Under the pieces are notes generated by a model. That model was not told the origin of the DNA. It was given only the letters and a program-made list of their open reading frames with translations, and did no database searches. This document shows positions 106 through 60,400 of a DNA stretch of 64,000 nucleotides, in pieces. The stretch is from Cristatella mucedo (lineage: Eukaryota > Bryozoa > Phylactolaemata > Cristatellidae): contig WPIO01000228.1 of assembly GCA_009760855.2 (NCBI GenBank), positions 62,001 to 126,000 on the forward strand. The letters run 5' to 3'. Numbering within the stretch: position 1 is the stretch's first letter; the number at the start of each line of letters is the position of its first letter. Both the position numbers and the translations under genes were made by a program.

Positions 106-21234
<21,129 letters not shown>

Positions 21235-21911: not shown

Positions 21912-22111
21912 ATAAAAATTGATCGTCTGAACCAAACATCCATCAATCTCTCGTGATATCTGATTGTTAGACTACGGTAGTAAATGGGAAATCGGAAATT
22001 TAATAATCGATATAAAAATTGATCGTCTGAACCAAACATCCATCAATCTCTCGTGATATCTGATTGTTAGACTACGGTAGTAAATGGGAAATCGGAAATT
22101 CAATAATCGAT
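21912..22111. repeat. Near-perfect 100-bp tandem duplication
   Basis: Two adjacent 100-bp units (21,912-22,011 and 22,012-22,111) differ at one base near the end (T at 22,001, C at 22,101). The second unit runs straight into the 5' break of an L2-like LINE fragment. Confidence 0.95.
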
Positions 22112-22114
22112 ACC

Positions 22115-23222
22115 ATTGAAAGCTGTCACCGCTATGCAGATGACACTCAGCTGTACCTTTGCTTTGATCCCTCTCAGCCTTCGAGCACGTCGAATTCTCT
22201 CAACTCCCTTGCTGTATGTATTGATGACATCCGCACATGGATGTCAGCAAATTTTCTTAAATTAAATGATGATAAAACTAACTTACTAGCTATGGGCAAA
22301 CCCAGTTTGATTCAGAAATTGGAAAGGCTAACGCTCAAACTCGGCTCTGCCAGCATATCTCCAGTTGAATCTGCCCGAAATATATGTGTCATGTTCCAAG
22401 GTGACCTTTTGTTAGATGACGACATCAGCTCCACAATCAAGTCTGCCTACTTTCAGCTACAAAACATTGCTAAAATTCGGGCTTGTTTAGATAAGGATAC
22501 CAAATCCAAGTTGGTCACTGCATTTGTGACATCCCATCCCGTCTTGACTTCTGTAACTCTCTGCTTGCTGGCCTACCGGCATGTGCGATCAGGTGCTTAC
22601 AGCTGGTGCAAAACTGCAGCTAGGCTTGTCTGTCGTGAGCATTGCAGTTGCCACATCACACCACTTCTCGCCGACCTGCACTAGCTACCAGTCAAACAAC
22701 GGATCGACTTCAAGGTTTTGTCGCTCACTTTTAGGTCTCTTCATTCTCTGGCTACCTATCAGATGTACTCCCCCACCAGGCCAAGCATCGTACCACCCGC
22801 TTTTTGGAAACTAACTGTTTACCAATACCTCGTTCAGACCTCAAATCCTTTGGAGACCGTGCATTTAGTTCGCATACTCCCAAAGCTTGGAACTCAATCC
22901 CGACTTGCGTAACAGCATCCCCTGACTTGGCCAAACACATTTAAAAGAAATTTAAAATGCACCTATTTTATGACAGTATTTAGTGGGTCCCTGTGATTCG
23001 TTCTGTATGTACTTATGCGTGCTGACACTGTTGCATACTGCCACTAACCACACTTGCATGCTGACCTTGTGCATGTCACCCCTAACCATGTTATTCATAT
23101 TGTTTATCGAGCATGCTACCACTCACCATTTAATCGTGCTTCCTTTGCAGCAAATGTAAAGCGCCAAGAAAGAGACTGAGTTCTCTGAGGGGGCTTTATC
23201 AAATGCATTATTATTATTATTG
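22115..23222 (+). mobile_element. 5'-truncated L2-like non-LTR retrotransposon with RT end and 3' tail
   Basis: Begins just before the reverse-transcriptase active site (HRYADDTQLYLCFDPSQPS, about 22,130) and reads on as LKLNDDKTNLLAMG and ESARNICVMFQGDLLL; the frame then breaks repeatedly. The 3' tail ends with a box for AAATGTAAAGCGCC, a ...GTTCTCTGAGGG... box and an ATT repeat at about 23,205-23,220. This layout (YADD motif, SFDP-like follow-on, short non-poly(A) tail repeat) is typical of L2/CR1-type LINEs. It is the best copy of the family in the window, but is dead: the 5' part is missing and the frame is interrupted. Confidence 0.88.
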
Positions 23223-38755: not shown

Positions 38756-41700
38756 ATGTCGCGGCGGAAATTAAAAGCCTTGGGCTATTCCGAACAGAAG
38801 ACATTCGAAATTAACGGTAGCGTTGTGCAACCCCTATGCTATCGTGTGTGTGCTACAGGTCGATATCGGCATCGATAGACGGCGTTATTTTTCTGAAAGT
38901 CAAGGCTTTTGGCCTGCTCTTCTTTGCCAAGCTGCGTACAGTTACAGGAGTGGGTAATAATTCATGAGCTCACGTTACATTGACTCATAGTAGGTTTTCT
39001 GAGCCTGTCTCGACCATCTCGTTGCCTCTCTTGCATAGTCCGCTGTCAAGTCAAGTCACTGCATCCTGTTGGTATTATATTTATACAAGTTCTGTTAGGC
39101 TTGTGCGTAGCAACAGTTGAAGATTAGAACGACGTAAGGGAAGCAGCACGTTTTATTACGCTCGATTTATCTATCGTTTTGTGCGAAGCCACTGCCTGTC
39201 GCGGCACATGCATATATGCACAAGTTGTATTATGCTTATGCGTAGTTGCAGTTGAACCCGAAGCTGAACTTGACTTGAGTTCGAAATAGCGTTGAACTGC
39301 AGGTTCAACTATCAAGAAAAACACCAATTTCTTTATTTCTCTGTAGCGCTGCAATATCCGTTGGGCGGTATGAGGCTGTAGAAATCCTTTTGACGGTTCG
39401 GCCACAATTGCATTTGTTTTTATTATGAAGACAAATTATCTATGAGTATCGCTCCACTCATAAATAGGTCTTGCATTTAAGGCTTGGAAAAGCTCAGCAT
39501 TTCTTGATCCTATCAGTCTCACAAGGCTGTAGCAAAACGTGGCCGTGGCACGTGTGTTCATGCAAATGCACGTGTACACTTACACACGCGGTCTCGACTT
39601 CCCGACGTTAGATGTCGAGGAACAATAAAGTTAGCTCTCGCCTGATGCCTTTTAAAGTGCAGTTAGGGTTGGATGGCGGGTTGTATGGGAACAACAGCCA
39701 CAGTCTGCTCGTTGCCGTAATGATACTGAGTATCTCTCCGATGGGATGTTCGCGATTGCATCTATCCATGTCAAGCCGACTTTGGTCGCCAGCTCGTGTT
39801 ATGGTGCCATTGGATTGCACCAAGCCATCATTAGCTCTCTTCCTCAACTCTTTTGCTATCCGTGCTCCCTACACTTTGGCATGAAATACCGTGGGACATT
39901 CTCCGGCCTGGTTTGGCCCGGAGCAAGGTTAAAGCAAAACCGGCAGGTGCCGGTGTCTAACAATCCGACGTGCATTGCTATCCAAGCTGCCCATGCATTG
40001 CTACGGCTGCCACCTTGGGAGCCCAAAGGAAAATTCTCTGCTGCTAGTTTTGTTTTGTGGGCGTCTTTCTTCGGTATGGCCGTTTTGAAAAGAGAACACT
40101 TTTACATGAAGTAGAAAGTAGCCAAGTAAACAGCCTCATCACTGCAGCTGCAGAAGAGCCCCGTTGGCTTTTTCGAGCTTGCAGTGGTTAGTGAGAAATC
40201 CTGCTGCCGCATTGCACGAACCCACGACATGGGCCGTGAAGGGCCGACATCTTACTATAGGGCTTATATTGGCCGGCGGATAGCCAAGCCAAGTCTAAGC
40301 ACTTGCCCAGTCTTTCGAGTCGTTGCAGTGGTGAGATGTGCCAGGTCACGTCATCTGCTTCAGCGCTTGCTGCGTGCTGTGCCTCCTCACGTTTGCTGTG
40401 CTGTACGTTTCAGACGAGGCTCAGTATCGGAGCCTCGTTGCCTGGTTAGAAGACCAGAAAGTCAGGCAACTGAAAATCGAAGAGCGTGGGCCGCTTCGAG
40501 ACTTGGATAGCGCCACCTGGCCAGCGGTGTACGGCAAGGTACTGCACGGCAGGTCGTGGCAGACCGACCTGCGAGCTCATTGGTGGCCATTTCCTTTTGT
40601 TTTTTTATGAGACCTCTCGACATGAAAAGCAGGCCGCTAGGCCGTGCTGTGCATAAGCTCTGCAATCATCTAGAGCAGCGGTTCTCAACCTGTAGGTCGC
40701 CACCCCTTTGGGGGGGGGGTCAAACGACCCTTTCACAGGGGTCGCCTACGACCATTGGAAAACACGCACTTCCACATTTTGCACACAATAATTGTATGGC
40801 TGGGGGTCGCCACAACATGAGGAACTGTGTTAAAGGGTGCTTTCGGCCACGATGTGTGTTCGGCTCCGGTACGGTGTGCTTCCGGCCACGGTGAGCACTG
40901 TGCTGCTATGTCCCATTTAATTGACAGAGCCGTGATTTTCGGGTTATCTTGTTCTTGCTATGACATGTTGTAGCAAATGTTTGATGTTTTATTGAGAGTG
41001 ATGAGTGGGCTCTGCTCTCAGGTGATATGCTCTCAGGTGATCTCATTCGACATGAGCACGGTAGAAGCGGCACATTTATCTGAAATTTCTTGTCTCGGTG
41101 AACCCAGTGGATCACAGCAGCAATTCAATAATGACAGTAATATTAAAACGTGTATAGTATTCTAAGAGAATTAATTCTTTTTCTAGGCACCAAATAGGTT
41201 TTGGAAGGCAGCATGTCGATGATTAGTGATAATATGCAAGTTTCTGCATGCACAAGCACATAAAGGACAGCTGATACCCACAGAGCAGATGCTGTGAAGA
41301 ATATGTTTTTTTTTTACTTCTTTCTAAATGAATAGTCAGAGGATGTTGTGATGTCAGTCATGCTTTGGTGGGAGCAGTATGAGCTGACAGCACAGTCTCC
41401 ACACGATTTGAGGTTGGCAAGATGCACCACTATATGACATGTCATCAGAGCTTGTGGTACGATGTGATGCATCACTGAGAAGTATTTTGCGATAGGTGGG
41501 CCGCAGCTTATGAAGGGACCTGAAATGAGCAACATGAAAAAATTGATGAACTGAGCAGCAGAAACTTGAAGTCGATACCCTGTTTGATGGGGAATCTTGG
41601 TGTGTACAATTTTATTTAAGCAATAATTTATAAAGTTAATAATCTCTTAATAAACAGACATGAAATCGGCCCAAGGGTAGCAGCGTTACTTTCTTCGTTG

Positions 41701-43075
41701 TGATGAGCTTTCAGTTGCTTTGGTTGGACAAGTTTTTGCCCTGAACAATGCATGACACCCGAAATACCGACCCCTTTCTTGAGGCAGCAGCTGAAATCAA
41801 ATGGACTCATGGATCACCGAATGCCTTCTCCTTTCGATCAATGGATCACCGAAGGCCTTCGCCTTAAGCAGCCTTGATTCATGCAAGCTCTGCTGTCGTT
41901 TTTCTCTCGACAACTTTTTTGGAAATTAAGGGGAACAAGGAGGCAACTTAGTGCAGACAATGAAATCGTGACGTTACGAGGACCCTTGCATTGGACCCGA
42001 CTCACGAGTCAGAGAGAGCCGTATCGAAACGTCGCGACTCATCCGATGTATCTGCTTTAAGGCATTTATGGTCTCGGACATGCTGTAGCTCACATTGTCT
42101 GCTGCTGTTGTAGTACTTATCCGAACTGAAGTGTCCTCTACCGTCATCCGACCGTGCCGGCTGTCTGGAGTGGCTGCTCGGCTTGGCCATCAGGCTGGAA
42201 TATTCTGACAACGCAGAGAAATACCGGTCCGTGGAACCGAAACCGGCGACCCCGGCCGAGGCAAAGTCTGTTGGTGGCCGACCGAGCTCTGCCGGCAGAA
42301 ATCCTCTGGCCGACCTGGATTGTGAGTGGCGACCTGTGCAGACCCAGCTGCCACCGGCGTGCCACAAGCGGTTGGCCGTCGTTTAATAATAATACTAAAA
42401 CTACATTTGTTATAGCATCCTCAGAGAACTCAATCTCTTTCTAGGCACTTCACATTTGCTGTAAAGGAAGCACGATCGAATAGTCAATGGTAGCATGCTC
42501 ATTGACAACGAGCGTAGCATGGTTAGAGGTGCCATGCATAGGTCGCATGCAAATATCGTTAGTGGCAACATGCGCAGTGTCAGCATGCATAAGCACACTA
42601 AGGACGGATCACGTGGACCCACTTAATGCTGTAATAAGTAGATTTACCTGCTTGCTGCTCGTTTGCATGCAGCGGGCACTCACCGTCCTTCAAACCTGCA
42701 GGATTCGGGGGTGGGGGCTTGAGCGTGCAGCCCATAGAGGCGTGCTCAGATGCAGCCAGAGCCTATCTCACACGATGCTACACGCATAACTCGCCAGCCT
42801 TGCCCTTTTGGCTGGTCACGTGGCGATGAGGATTAGGACAGCATTTAGTGGGTCCCTGTGATTCGTCCTTGATGTGCTTATGCGTGCTGACACTGTGCAT
42901 GCTGCCACTAACCACATTTGCATGCTGACCCTGTGCATGTCACCCCTAACCATATTATTCATTTCGTTTGTTTTTCAAGAATGATTTTACTTACCATTCA
43001 ATTGCATTTCACTTTACAGCAAATGTAAAGCGCCTAGAGAGAGATTAAGTTCTCTGAGGGCGCTTTATCAAGTGA

Positions 43076-46100: not shown

Positions 46101-46789
46101 CACTATTGCAGGGCTAGCCGTTTCTTTACCGGCAAGTCCCAGAGCAGGCTGTGGTGGGGAGTTGTTCCGAGGTTGCAGCATCTTCTCTAATGGGTGGGGG
46201 GATGTCACCCCACCATATTGGCGTCTGCTCAAGGGACAAGATATATCGTGAATATATAGCGATATATATATATATATATATATATTGTATTATTTATTTA
46301 TATTATATGTAAAGATATAATAGATATATAACGTGAAAGAAAACTTAATTCCTGTTCGTTTTTACTAGAAGTTTCTAGTAACCCAAGTCCGGCGCTGCAA
46401 CTTCCAGCTGTATGGCAGCATCACGATGGCGATGCTTCAGTAAGGAGATGCGGCTTTGAGTGAGCCGTTTCGTTGGGATTTAGCTCGTCCACTGCATAAC
46501 TATGGATGACTCTGCTTGGCTTTTCTTCTCTTCATTTCCGGGTCATTGTCGAGGCTGACATAGCCTCGGTAAAGCCCGCGGCTGCCCTGGCCGTAGTGAT
46601 GTCTGCTGACTGAGCGCTTTATCACACTTTGTAGATTATGTCGTCAACGATGCGGCCAGGATACTGCGTCTGCTGCACTTGCGTGAGCTGCGGGACCTGC
46701 AGACGCGCATTAACGAGGCTATCGTGGCTGTGCAGGCACTTGTGGCTGATCCTAAGACCGACCAGAGGCTTGGCAGAATAGGCCGATAA
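38756..46789 (+). CDS. RTRAF: RTRAF / CLE (C14orf166 family), complete, six exons
   Basis: Conserved animal RNA-metabolism factor, part of the tRNA-splicing ligase complex (with RTCB, DDX1 and FAM98) and linked to RNA polymerase II and RNA transport granules; it shuttles between nucleus and cytoplasm. Exons 38756-38816, 40414-40538, 42114-42321, 43723-43811, 45296-45428 and 46635-46789 join in frame to 256 codons plus TAA (human protein 244). The start is MSRRKLKALGY, matching the MFRRKLTALDY start of the vertebrate protein. Then come LVAWLEDQKVRQLKIEERG, WLLGLAIRLEYSDNAEKY, EFKAAVTSLQCLL, AVNLLVQERLS, and the near-invariant C-terminus RILRLLHLRELRDLQ...VADPKTDQRLGRIGR. Exon 5 holds an Ala/Ser-rich insert (about residues 172-184) that accounts for the extra length. 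Introns hold a SPIN-like element and several LINE fragments. Convergent with the VRK1 gene. Confidence 0.96.
40676..40838 (+). mobile_element. hAT-type, SPIN-like non-autonomous DNA transposon remnant
   Basis: Left end CAGCGGTTCTCAACCTGTAG matches the terminal inverted repeat I remember for SPIN (SPACE INVADERS) hAT elements. It is followed by the GGTCGCCACCCC...CAAACGACCCTTTCACAGG block and, nearer the right, GGCTGGGGGTCGCCACAAC and ATGAGGAACTGTGTTAAAGG in SPIN order. The right terminal repeat is missing and most of the middle is deleted. A G run of about ten inside the left block is a local expansion. Located in RTRAF intron 2. Family name is from memory; no search was run. Confidence 0.78.
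41145..41600 (-). mobile_element. L2-like LINE 3' fragment, inverted
   Basis: Minus-strand copy of the tail (box AGAGAATTAATTCT at about 41,165) and of the distal RT frame (segments equivalent to 57,930-58,200). Located in RTRAF intron 2. Confidence 0.75.
42385..42640 (-). mobile_element. L2-like LINE 3' tail, inverted copy of a head-to-head pair
   Basis: Starts with AATAATAAT and carries the tail box CATCCTCAGAGAACTCAATC, then the CATGC-rich tail segments in reverse order. Lies in RTRAF intron 3 just upstream of a direct-orientation copy at 42,838-43,110. Confidence 0.85.
42838..43110 (+). mobile_element. L2-like LINE 3' tail, direct copy of a head-to-head pair
   Basis: Tail segment from TTTAGTGGGTCCCTGTGATT through AAATGTAAAGCGCC and TTCTCTGAGGGCGC to an uninterrupted (ATT)n ending at 43,110. 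Together with 42,385-42,640 it forms an inverted pair with a spacer of about 200 bp in RTRAF intron 3. Confidence 0.88.
44243..44273. repeat. (GT)n microsatellite
   Basis: GT repeat in RTRAF intron 4 followed by a T run. Confidence 0.95.
44525..44610 (+). mobile_element. L2-like LINE terminal tail fragment
   Basis: Short match to the terminal box (GTAAAGTGCAAAGAAAGAGA, then TTCTCCTAGGGTGC) followed by ATT-rich sequence; RTRAF intron 4. Confidence 0.65.
45184..45259. repeat. 38-bp tandem duplication in RTRAF intron 4
   Basis: Two units starting GCGAAACCCTC and ending ACTTGCAAGGA, differing at about two bases, just 36 bp upstream of RTRAF exon 5. Confidence 0.9.
46260..46287. repeat. (AT)n microsatellite
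   Basis: Pure AT run in RTRAF intron 5, inside a wider AT-rich stretch to about 46,330. Confidence 0.95.
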
Positions 46790-52800: not shown

Positions 52801-54348
52801 CTGATAAGTGAACGGACATCGTTCATGTACCTAAAACGGTGTGTGCAATGTAATACTGCAGGCTCACTTCAAGTAAACATCGTCTGCTCATGTCACACAT
52901 AACGGCAAGCATACACATGCGACCGGCTGCTAAGAGCTTGTTGGCCCAGCCACCCAACAAAGCCACAACCAGCCAGTCACCGAAAAGCTTCGGCCGGACG
53001 ACCGACCAGCAAAATACGAATGGCATGCAGAAGCGACCTACCTGATTTTCATGTCTCGCACGGCGTCTTTATCGGCGATGAATCTTAACCAAGGAAGCGT
53101 GCCGGAGTACCACTGAAGCAGGCAGTAGCCCAGGATCTCGATGTCACCTCTGCGAGACGGTTCTGAAGAGGAAATGTCGTGCAAGCGTGCTCACAGTGAG
53201 TCCAGTAAAGGCTACTGGCACACGAGCCACAATCAACTGCTGGCTTCTTGAGCAACGGCGCAGACAGCACGACGATTTCACACTGCCGATTACTTTACGA
53301 CAGCAAAGGACGATTTCCCCTCCACCAGCTCGGCTATACGACCTAACTGAGTGTACGAGAGTAAACAAACAATGCTGACATACAAGGTATGCTGAGTGAG
53401 CTGTCGAACAATCTAGAGCGGTGTGTGGGGGACAAGTTCGAGCGATCGAGTTACGATGAAGAAGAGCACTTCAAAAAACGTGTCTGAGATGAACTGACAT
53501 CAGCTTCGCGAGAGAGATAGTGGGAAGATTATCCGTGAAGCAGCTGTTCCTACAGAGCTATTTGGAGGGACCCACTACGCAGCTCCTCGGGGGGGGGGGA
53601 GGCCCCCAAGGAGCCACATAAAGTACTGACAGCTCCGATAGCAAAATAATAATAGTACCTAATATCTAATACCTCGTGCCACACCAACAAGAGCACCTAA
53701 TAGCAATGCACAACCACTCAGACTCATAGCAGCTGTTGCCCCGAGGTAGGATAAATCTTTTCACAAGACAAGCACAGGTATTCTTCGGCGTAGAGTCAAT
53801 GGAACGCTTACGTAACCGCTATATGAATGAGGTGAGATACCGAATACCAGCAAGGCATTCCAACGAGAGCATATTTCTTATCAAGCTCCTACTAGCTCGA
53901 AGTAATTCGCTGGCACTAGCCTGTATGCAGCTGTACGTCACCAGGCCAGTATCGCTAACACTGACGAAGGCAAAACATGGGATTGAAATCATGGCCGACA
54001 TTAGCTTTGCTGGCAGCAATGGGTAGGAGTAGCCGTTCCACTTACTCACTCCTTTGTGGGCGTCCCTACTTGTGAAGTCAACAGTCCCGTCATGCGCTTT
54101 CCTAGGGTCTTCTTTGTATTCGTGGTGAGAAGTGTCCAACTGAAACTTGCTTGCCAAGCCATAATCAACCAGATACACATGCTGCGGGATTGGCTGCCCA
54201 TCAACAAGCAAGATATTGGAGGCCTTAATGTCGGCGTGGACATAGCCGTTACTATGAATGTACTCCAAGGCATCCAGCTACAACGAAGCACGGTATTATT
54301 TCATTCAAAATCCGTTATTTATACATCAGTTCACACATTCATGAGCAC

Positions 54349-57400: not shown

Positions 57401-60400
57401 CAGAAGGACCGTCTTTAAAGGAAAGCGCTGACCGTTCTTGTCAAAAACTTGCTGAAGATCTGTGCCAAAACGTTCCATGACCATAAATCTGTATTTTGTC
57501 TGACGGTTGTCTTCATATGACCCAGACGCAATGTATTTCGGGACGCCAAGGTGCAGCAGCTTACGCGCTTTCTTCCACTGTTCAACTAAAAATGGTGAAT
57601 ATGCAAAATATAGCAGCAGCTGTGGACGCACAGGCACTGCAGTACTAAATGTATGCATCATGGCTCATCGAAAAATAATAATATAAAATAATAATAATAC
57701 GCTTGATACATCGCCCTTTGAGAACTCAATCTCTTCCTAAGCGCTTTACATTTGCTGCAAAGGAAACCCAATCGAATGGTGAGTGGTATCATGCTTGATA
57801 AACAACATGAATAACATGGTTACGGGTGACATGCACAGGGTCAGCATGCAAGTGTGGTTAGTGGCAGCATGCACAGTGTCAGCACGCATGAGCACATAAA
57901 GGACGAATCACAGGGACCCACTAAATGCTGTCATAAATAAGAAGTTTTTTAAGTTTTTTTTAACGTGGTCAAGTCGGGGGATGTCGTGATGCAAGTCGGG
58001 GGGGGGCGAGTTCCAGGCTTTGGGAGCATACGAACTAAATGCAAGGTCTCCAAAGGATTTGAGGTTTGTACGAGGTATTGGTAAACAGTTAGATTTCGAA
58101 AAGCAGGTGGTACGATGCTTGGCCTGGTGGGGGAGTAGATCTGATAGATAGGCTGGAGCCACAGAATGAAGGGACCTAAAAGTGAGCGACAAAACCTTGA
58201 AGTCGGTCCATTGTTTGACTGGTAGCCAGTGCAGGTCGGCGAGAAGTGGTGTGATGTGGCAACTCACAGACAAGCCTAGCTGCAGAGTTTTGCACCAGCT
58301 GTAAGAGCTTGATTGCACGTGACGATAGGCCAGCAAGCAGTGAGTTACAGAAGTCAAGACAGCATAAGCACATCATCCTAGCAATGTGCAATATTCATAC
58401 TTTGGTTCCCAATATGCCGACGACACTGCTTAACTCCCAACCCCCTCACTGGTGCAACGTAACAACTCGACACTAGCCGATGTCATTGACAAGCTTGCTC
58501 CTCTGACTCAGTATACTGCAAGTCCTAGCCCAGATTGCCTTTGGTATACCGAAGGCATTAAACTAACCAGATCTATCAAGTGCAAGTTCACAGCCACTCA
58601 CTAAGAAGGCCAGACTAGACCAGAGAACTTCAGCTATGCCCCCAACCCAGTCTGCCTACTGCCGCTACTATAAAAAAATCTGGAACCAGCAGCGGCAGAC
58701 CAAGTAGACTCATATATCAAATTTTCAAACCTAAGCAACTGCCTGCCACGTTTTAGTGCTAATCATTCAACTGAGACGACATTGCTGCGAGTGTATAAAG
58801 ACCCTCTCGAGAATGCAGACTAGAGTAGCATAAAGTCACTTTGCTTGCTTCGATGGATCTTTGGGCTGCTATTGATATTACTGATCACCAAGTCATTCTT
58901 CCTTTTTTCTTGAGCCCCTCTCATCTCGCCAGGGCATCACTGGCACTGCACTGCAATAGTTTAGGTCCTATCTCGGTAGGAAACTCAAGAGCATTGCTGT
59001 CAAAAAAATATGCAACAACCAACAGAAGAGCCTCCGAAGTAGGGGTAACCCCCCAAGCTCTGTGCTTGGCCCACGTCTTTCCACAATTTATATTCTTCCT
59101 CTTGCCGATGTAATTGCCTATCACAATATAGGTTTCATTTCTATGCAGATGACACAAAGCTGTAACTAACCTCGGTTTAAAAAAAAAATTGTCGCAGTAT
59201 GACCGCAGGTGCTATTACTGCTACTCTGTTCGAGCAATAAAGAGATTTTCTACGACGGCAGGCATCCGGAAGTTGTGCACAGTAATTTATAATAAAAATA
59301 TATTTGTATAGCACCCTCAGAGAACTGCATCTCGTTCTAGGCAGTTTACAGATGCTGCATAGAAAGCATTACCAAACTATTGGTGGTAACATCCACAAGC
59401 AGCAGGTATAGTGTAAGCAGATACGTGCACACGAAGGACGAACTACAAAGGCCCACCAAACGCCACAATACAGGTGTTTTTAAACTTTTTTTTTTTAAAT
59501 GTCGCCATGTCAGGGGACATTGTGACGAGTGTGGATAGTGAGTTCCAGGCTTTGGGGGCATAGAAACCAAAGGCACGGTCTCTAACGGTTTTGAGGCTCG
59601 TACGAGGTATGGCTAAACGATTCGAGTCAGAACAGTGATGTGAGCTGCCCAAGAGGATGCTTGGATAATTCCCAGCTGGCCAGAGTTCCCAAATACTCAG
59701 TGGCTTTGTTTAGTGCTCTGGCAAGTCCGAACAATGAAAATTAAGGTGTTTTAAGATTTTTTTTTACTACTCAATGTATCCTTTGATCCATCCCCACCTT
59801 CCTGCACGGCAACCTCTGTTAACTCCTTTGCTGCATGTACTACTGACATTCGTAAATGGATGACAGTAAACTTTCTCAGATTGAACTGCGATAAAACCAA
59901 CTTATGGGCAAACGAAGTGCTACTCAAAAAGTAGAAAGCTTGACATTTAAATCAGCTCTGCCGTCATATCTCCGGTAGAATCTGCACGACATCTAGGTGT
60001 CCAGTTCCAAAGTGACCTCTCACTAGACGACCACATGAGCTCATCAGTCAAATCGACCTTCTTTCAGCTATGTAAAATTGCAAAAACAAATTAGGCTTGC
60101 TTAGACAGTACTATACCCAAGTTTGTCCTTGCATTTGTGACATTCTGTCTCGACTTCTGTAACTCACTGCTTGCTGGTCTACCGGCCTGCGCAATCAAGC
60201 GCTTACAGTTGATGCAAAACTCTGCAGCTAGGCTTGTCTGTCGTGAGCGTTGCAGTTGCCACACCTCACCACTTCTCGTCAACTTGCACTGGCTCCTAAT
60301 CAAACAGCTTATTTTTAAGGTGTTATCACTCACTTTTAAGTCCCTTAATTCTTTTGTTCGAGCTTACCTTTCTGGAGCACTTGCTCGGCAGGCCTTTCCT

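Follow-up and report, generated by a model that had tools for sequence, protein, structure and literature searches.

Background

The locus considered here raises the question of how a short non-coding segment within a gene of an animal genome came by its likeness to SPIN, a hAT transposon, and whether it was inherited by descent or acquired horizontally. An original prediction, made from the letters of a 64-kb stretch of genomic DNA (64,000 bases, henceforth the window), had placed a SPIN-like remnant with a terminal repeat, further internal blocks and a lost right end inside intron 2 of the gene RTRAF. The known invertebrate hosts of SPIN are a triatomine bug, a planarian and a pond snail, and every host added to this list is informative about which animals, and what kinds of contact, convey transposons from phylum to phylum. 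SPIN is contained in the Buster family, and TcBuster generates 8-bp duplications of the form nnnTAnnn, as described in PMC3499496; PMC3517528 likewise gives nnnTAnnn as the target duplication consensus of Buster elements. The presence of SPIN in murine rodents is described in PMC5857283, and SPIN-related hATs of Rhodnius in PMC11614815.

Results and discussion

A right-truncated hAT element within RTRAF

The gene surrounding the element was identified by tblastn with the human RTRAF protein and by the Pfam RLL domain (PF10036), which matches two of its exons at 2.1e-12 and 1.1e-23. By exon, the protein identity to human RTRAF is 45-75% over the four best tblastn matches (E<=0.005), two weaker matches (E 0.20 and 5.6) having been left out of this range. 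The gene was correctly predicted; the numbering of the intron as the second is presumptive, since exon 1 of RTRAF was not located. The features of the locus, in order along the window, are as follows:

40414..40538, + strand: RTRAF coding exon upstream of the element, with AG before it and GT after it, corresponding to approximately residues 20-63 of RTRAF
40668..40675, + strand: presumed target octamer ATCTAGAG, left copy, centred on TA like the octamers of 34 of the 39 other copies of the element
40676..40838, + strand: copy of a 187-bp non-autonomous hAT element (putatively a SPIN-type MITE) in the RTRAF intron, 163 bp long, with the left end intact and the last 29 bp missing
40676..40690, + strand: left terminal inverted repeat CAGCGGTTCTCAACC, exact, and identical to the consensus of the 39 other copies
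40710..40719, + strand: homopolymer of 10 G, where the aligned family consensus has five fewer
40837..40890, + strand: two similar 15-base stretches, GTGCTT.CGGCCACG, at 40837 and 40876, starting where the element breaks off, with a putative role in its truncation
42132..42284 (start about 42132), + strand: RTRAF coding stretch next after the element, found by tblastn with human RTRAF
46634..46786, + strand: last RTRAF coding exon (Pfam RLL, 1.1e-23)

The left terminal repeat CAGCGGTTCTCAACC occurs exactly as predicted at 40676-40690. By itself this 15-mer is weak evidence, because with up to three mismatches it has 2 matches in the window against 1.66 expected by chance. Near-identical 15-bp ends are common to many hAT-Charlie families, and for this reason the end is no signature of SPIN. 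It is the inner blocks, rather than the terminal 15-mer, that carry the putative identification as a SPIN-type element.

Loss of the right end was evident by several measures. The motif GAGAACC is absent from 40001 to 43000, a second copy of the target octamer ATCTAGAG with at most one mismatch was not found between 40839 and about 43000, and within 40839-42100 nothing resembles the right end at a score above 16, which is also the median of the shuffled sequences. The right end and the second target copy were likely removed by a local rearrangement, because the two similar 15-base stretches, which lie 39 bases apart and may be its trace, start at the break point. A search of the remainder of the 64-kb window for a second copy of the element yielded none.

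Several other features of the window were recognized along the way. Exons of a xanthine dehydrogenase/aldehyde oxidase-like gene lie on the - strand at 2265-9066, as indicated by Pfam and motifs, with a PDB match to XDH at 2265-2693 (3.8e-10), and an exon of a vaccinia-related kinase occupies 53822-54277, also on the - strand, with VRK1 as its best PDB match (7.3e-24). Pieces of a LINE are found at 21912-22684 and 57908-58372; the first has a weak match to reverse transcriptase and shares part of its length with a tandem duplication of 100 bp (99% matches).

Members of the family elsewhere in the genome

The window copy was used to search the host genome (572,011,866 bases in 688 contigs), and 40 of the 2049 first-look candidates were scored. 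All 40 matched, and the 39 besides the window copy itself, at 85-90% identity, are spread over 29 contigs, the longest of which is 24.8 Mb. Every one of these 39 copies continues beyond the point at which the window copy breaks off, into sequence like CGCGGCATTAGGAAGGTTGAGAACCACTG. The 29-base right end is followed to base 25 or further in 36 of the 39, with at least 24 of the 29 bases identical in 32 of them; in three copies (L021, L025 and L041) the right terminus has been lost or changed. The majority consensus of the copies is 187 bp long, starting with CAGCGGTTCTCAACC, of which the first bases are CAG, and finishing with GGTTGAGAACCACTG, the two ends being inverted repeats of each other with one difference in 15.

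The original prediction had pointed to full copies with 8-bp target duplications as a means of checking it, and such copies are indeed present in the genome. Flanking repeats of 8 bp with 7-8 matching bases were detected in 27 of the 39 copies, 11 of them perfect, as against 37 of 1482 in a mispaired control, in which left and right flanks were taken from different copies; in both cases the right end was allowed to shift by up to 3 bases. The remaining 12 copies have no target duplication at 7 or more bases. TA occupies the centre of the target octamer in 34/39. At least three of the 39 copies share flanks (L009, L026 and L040) and are not independent insertions; the flanks of these are similar on both sides, and they may sit inside another repeat or have been copied along with it.

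Across the 40 copies the mean K2P distance from the consensus is 0.061 (range 0.033-0.095), figures that are biased in that the other 39 were scored as the best matches of the window copy and form no random sample. The window copy differs from the consensus by 9 substitutions in 158 aligned positions (K2P 0.060). CpG sites have changed 2.5 times as often as other sites (12.5% versus 5.0%; 40 copies). With its many copies, clear target duplications and about 6% divergence in the sampled copies, the family is suited to dating the invasion.

Relationship to SPIN and other hAT elements

The reference for comparison was a provisional 225-base sequence of a rodent hAT repeat, set down ahead of the recovery of any genomic copy and presumably corresponding to URR1 of Repbase; URR1 and the murine SPIN are presumably one family. 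Local alignment of 40676-40838 to this provisional reference scores 176, and 1000 dinucleotide shuffles score 18.2 +/- 2.3 with a maximum of 27, so that a chance origin of the stretch can be rejected and the further blocks of the original prediction are borne out. The best other place in the window scores 31. When the first 15 bases are left out, the score against the provisional SPIN-type reference is still 146. A closer match to some other hAT-Charlie family would have spoken against SPIN; the two tested, MER5A and a MER3-like sequence, both likewise in provisional form, score 27 and 31 versus 176 over the whole copy and 16 and 16 versus 146 over the inner blocks, that is, they match little beyond the terminus.

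The family consensus agrees with the provisional reference at 85/85 bases on the left and 80/81 on the right, the blocks being bounded by where the agreement ends. The agreement takes in all 29 bases of the right terminus, which are absent from the window. Since a consensus obtained later agrees with the reference, including a terminus that the window lacks, the reference appears to be a correct rendering of a real element. Between the end blocks, the 21 bp of the host consensus and the 59 bp of the provisional rodent form correspond poorly. Differing inner parts are usual for independently formed short derivatives. The family also displays two features of the Buster group: an 8-bp nnnTAnnn target duplication (27/39 at 7-8 bases; TA in 34/39) and short terminal inverted repeats starting with CAG, as seen in the consensus. 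The name SPIN would be apt for the element to the extent that the provisional reference renders the murine SPIN accurately.

Candidate sources of transposase

A profile search of the genome for the hAT dimerisation domain (PF05699) gave 766 first-look candidates; 150 of these were scored, and 138 matched at E<=0.001. The sequence of the element was found in none of the 50 loci examined among these 138 matches, 30 of the loci having been taken with only about 1.5 kb of flank, beyond which ends would be missed. The 30 best loci (L048-L077), which lie on many contigs, represent one very young hAT family with a reading frame of up to about 640 aa: the other 29 match L062 at 99.0-99.8% in their longest aligned stretches, and dozens of matches in the genome share one score. 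As a candidate for the autonomous partner this young family was discarded, since the sequence of the element occurs in 0/30 of its loci. The 20 weaker loci are also without it, and three of them (L081, L085 and L086) hold pieces of the young family. Separately, hAT-derived frames were noticed at L095, L090 and L097, with no SPIN-type ends nearby; these are possible Buster remnants, and we take them to resemble Buster transposases of the GTF2IRD2/ZBED5 type.

Identity of the host

The original prediction spoke of spread across phyla on the proviso that the host is an invertebrate. One contig of the assembly, C688, carries mitochondrial genes, including COX1 as recognized by Pfam. Translated with code 5, its COX1 runs through 517 codons without a stop, 15 of them TGA and 11 AGA/AGG, the latter read as serine; several of the AGA/AGG fall at conserved serines, e.g. 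in VKVFSW and NNMSFWLLPP, and AAA is found where lysine is expected. In the vertebrate mitochondrial code AGA and AGG are stops, and the host is therefore an invertebrate if C688 belongs to it. The genes on one strand follow the order cox3-trnK-trnA-trnN-atp6-cox1-trnI-nad3, where cox3, atp6 and nad3 were called by eye and the tRNAs by ARAGORN, one Leu and one Ser that overlap genes being ignored; a further tRNA Gly follows nad3, and a tRNA Ser lies on the other strand. This order is unlike the arthropod order and nearer to the mollusc/lophotrochozoan order, which is weak evidence on the affinity of the host. A tick, at first suggested by G+C and CpG, was discarded as the host on account of this order. 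Fragments of COX1 other than that of C688 are present on C166, C83, C549 and C299 (L099-L103) and are possibly nuclear copies of mitochondrial DNA. The G+C content of the window, 0.488, compares with 0.448 for 20 other loci. Neither the G+C content nor the size of the genome agrees with those of the triatomine bug, the planarian or the pond snail.

Origin of the element

We favor, with a probability of about 0.85, the reading that the segment is a dead, right-truncated copy of a 187-bp non-coding hAT MITE of the Buster/SPIN group, most likely acquired horizontally. A miniature element of this kind would hold only the ends recognised by the transposase, and would have been mobilised in trans by cut-and-paste, using the transposase of a full-length element. 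Having presumably entered the genome by horizontal transfer and not by descent, the family would have multiplied to many copies in this invertebrate. The window copy would have inserted at a TA-centred octamer within the RTRAF intron, and a later, small local rearrangement would have taken its last 29 bp together with the second target copy, leaving it no longer mobile. Horizontal transfer is the most likely mode of entry because the non-coding ends barely differ from the provisional rodent sequence, with 165/166 bases equal. For comparison, the RTRAF exons have 45-75% protein identity to human RTRAF.

An improbable alternative is that of a resident, vertically inherited hAT-Charlie/Buster family, the SPIN-like ends of which reflect shared ancestry within the superfamily. 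hAT elements, Charlie included, are reported in all arthropod species investigated (PMC6327564), sequences with the hAT domain are frequent in the present genome, as the 138 matches at E<=0.001 attest, and no autonomous partner with SPIN-type ends emerged from the 50 loci examined, all of which would sit well with such a family. Yet neutral descent across phyla would not preserve non-coding ends at 165/166 bases, and the scores of 27 and 31 for the provisional MER5A and MER3-like sequences, as against 176, also count against such a family. Considerably less probable still is contamination of the assembly by vertebrate DNA, or a chimeric join, a concern already voiced in the original prediction. 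Exons of a diverged RTRAF gene, at 45-75% identity to the human protein, flank the copy on either side, the 39 other copies are distributed over 29 contigs of up to 24.8 Mb, 27 of them with target duplications of their own, and the inner 21 bp of the consensus have no counterpart in the provisional rodent sequence.

Very unlikely, too, is a functional element under selection, such as an intronic regulatory unit or a non-coding RNA. Single-strand DNA folding of the copy is somewhat stronger than that of shuffled sequences (z -2.49; 3/200 shuffles as good), a signal that is also expected of transposon ends, since these are self-complementary. Of the six reading frames, one remains open through its 54 codons and the other five are interrupted by stops. 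Within the window every Rfam family stays below its gathering score, and the copy is as far from the consensus (K2P 0.060) as the copies are on average (0.061). The copy itself, as a truncated MITE, has no known activity, and its value is that of a marker.

Comparison with known SPIN-related elements

A literature search over titles and the beginnings of abstracts returned, among the matches listed, none that reports this element from an additional invertebrate. Four pieces of the element's sequence, searched as letters in papers, gave no match, and no paper was found for SPIN, URR1 and transposon together. Exact matches to single element patterns numbered 0 in all scans of viral and prokaryotic genome contigs, and distant blastn against plasmids and phages recovered 0 relatives. 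On balance, we consider it an even proposition that the genome represents a previously unreported host lineage of SPIN, possibly lophotrochozoan, in which an element with consensus ends essentially identical to those of mammals has amplified to roughly a thousand copies or more, part of them inside genes. If true, this would widen the distribution of a transposon that ranks among those most often passed between animals; and should the lineage have no tie to tetrapods through blood feeding or parasitism, a route other than the host-parasite contact usually invoked would be needed.

The occurrence of SPIN-related hATs in invertebrates is already known, and the present family would add another. 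It resembles the non-autonomous SPIN elements of tetrapods, triatomine bugs and others, which likewise have an 8-bp TA-centred duplication and a short non-coding form. With the presumed rodent SPIN sequence it shares both ends, but the inner 21 bp differ; the provisional reference, presumably the URR1-type rodent repeat, matches the consensus at both ends and is 38 bp longer. The hAT of the snail Biomphalaria glabrata, with significant identity to SPIN and about 1,000 copies as described in PMC5440852, also attains many copies in an invertebrate, a likeness drawn from the description and not from its sequence. In the Biomphalaria glabrata assembly, the same source found no DNA transposon with its transposase intact; in the present genome, none with the ends of the element was seen in the 50 loci examined.
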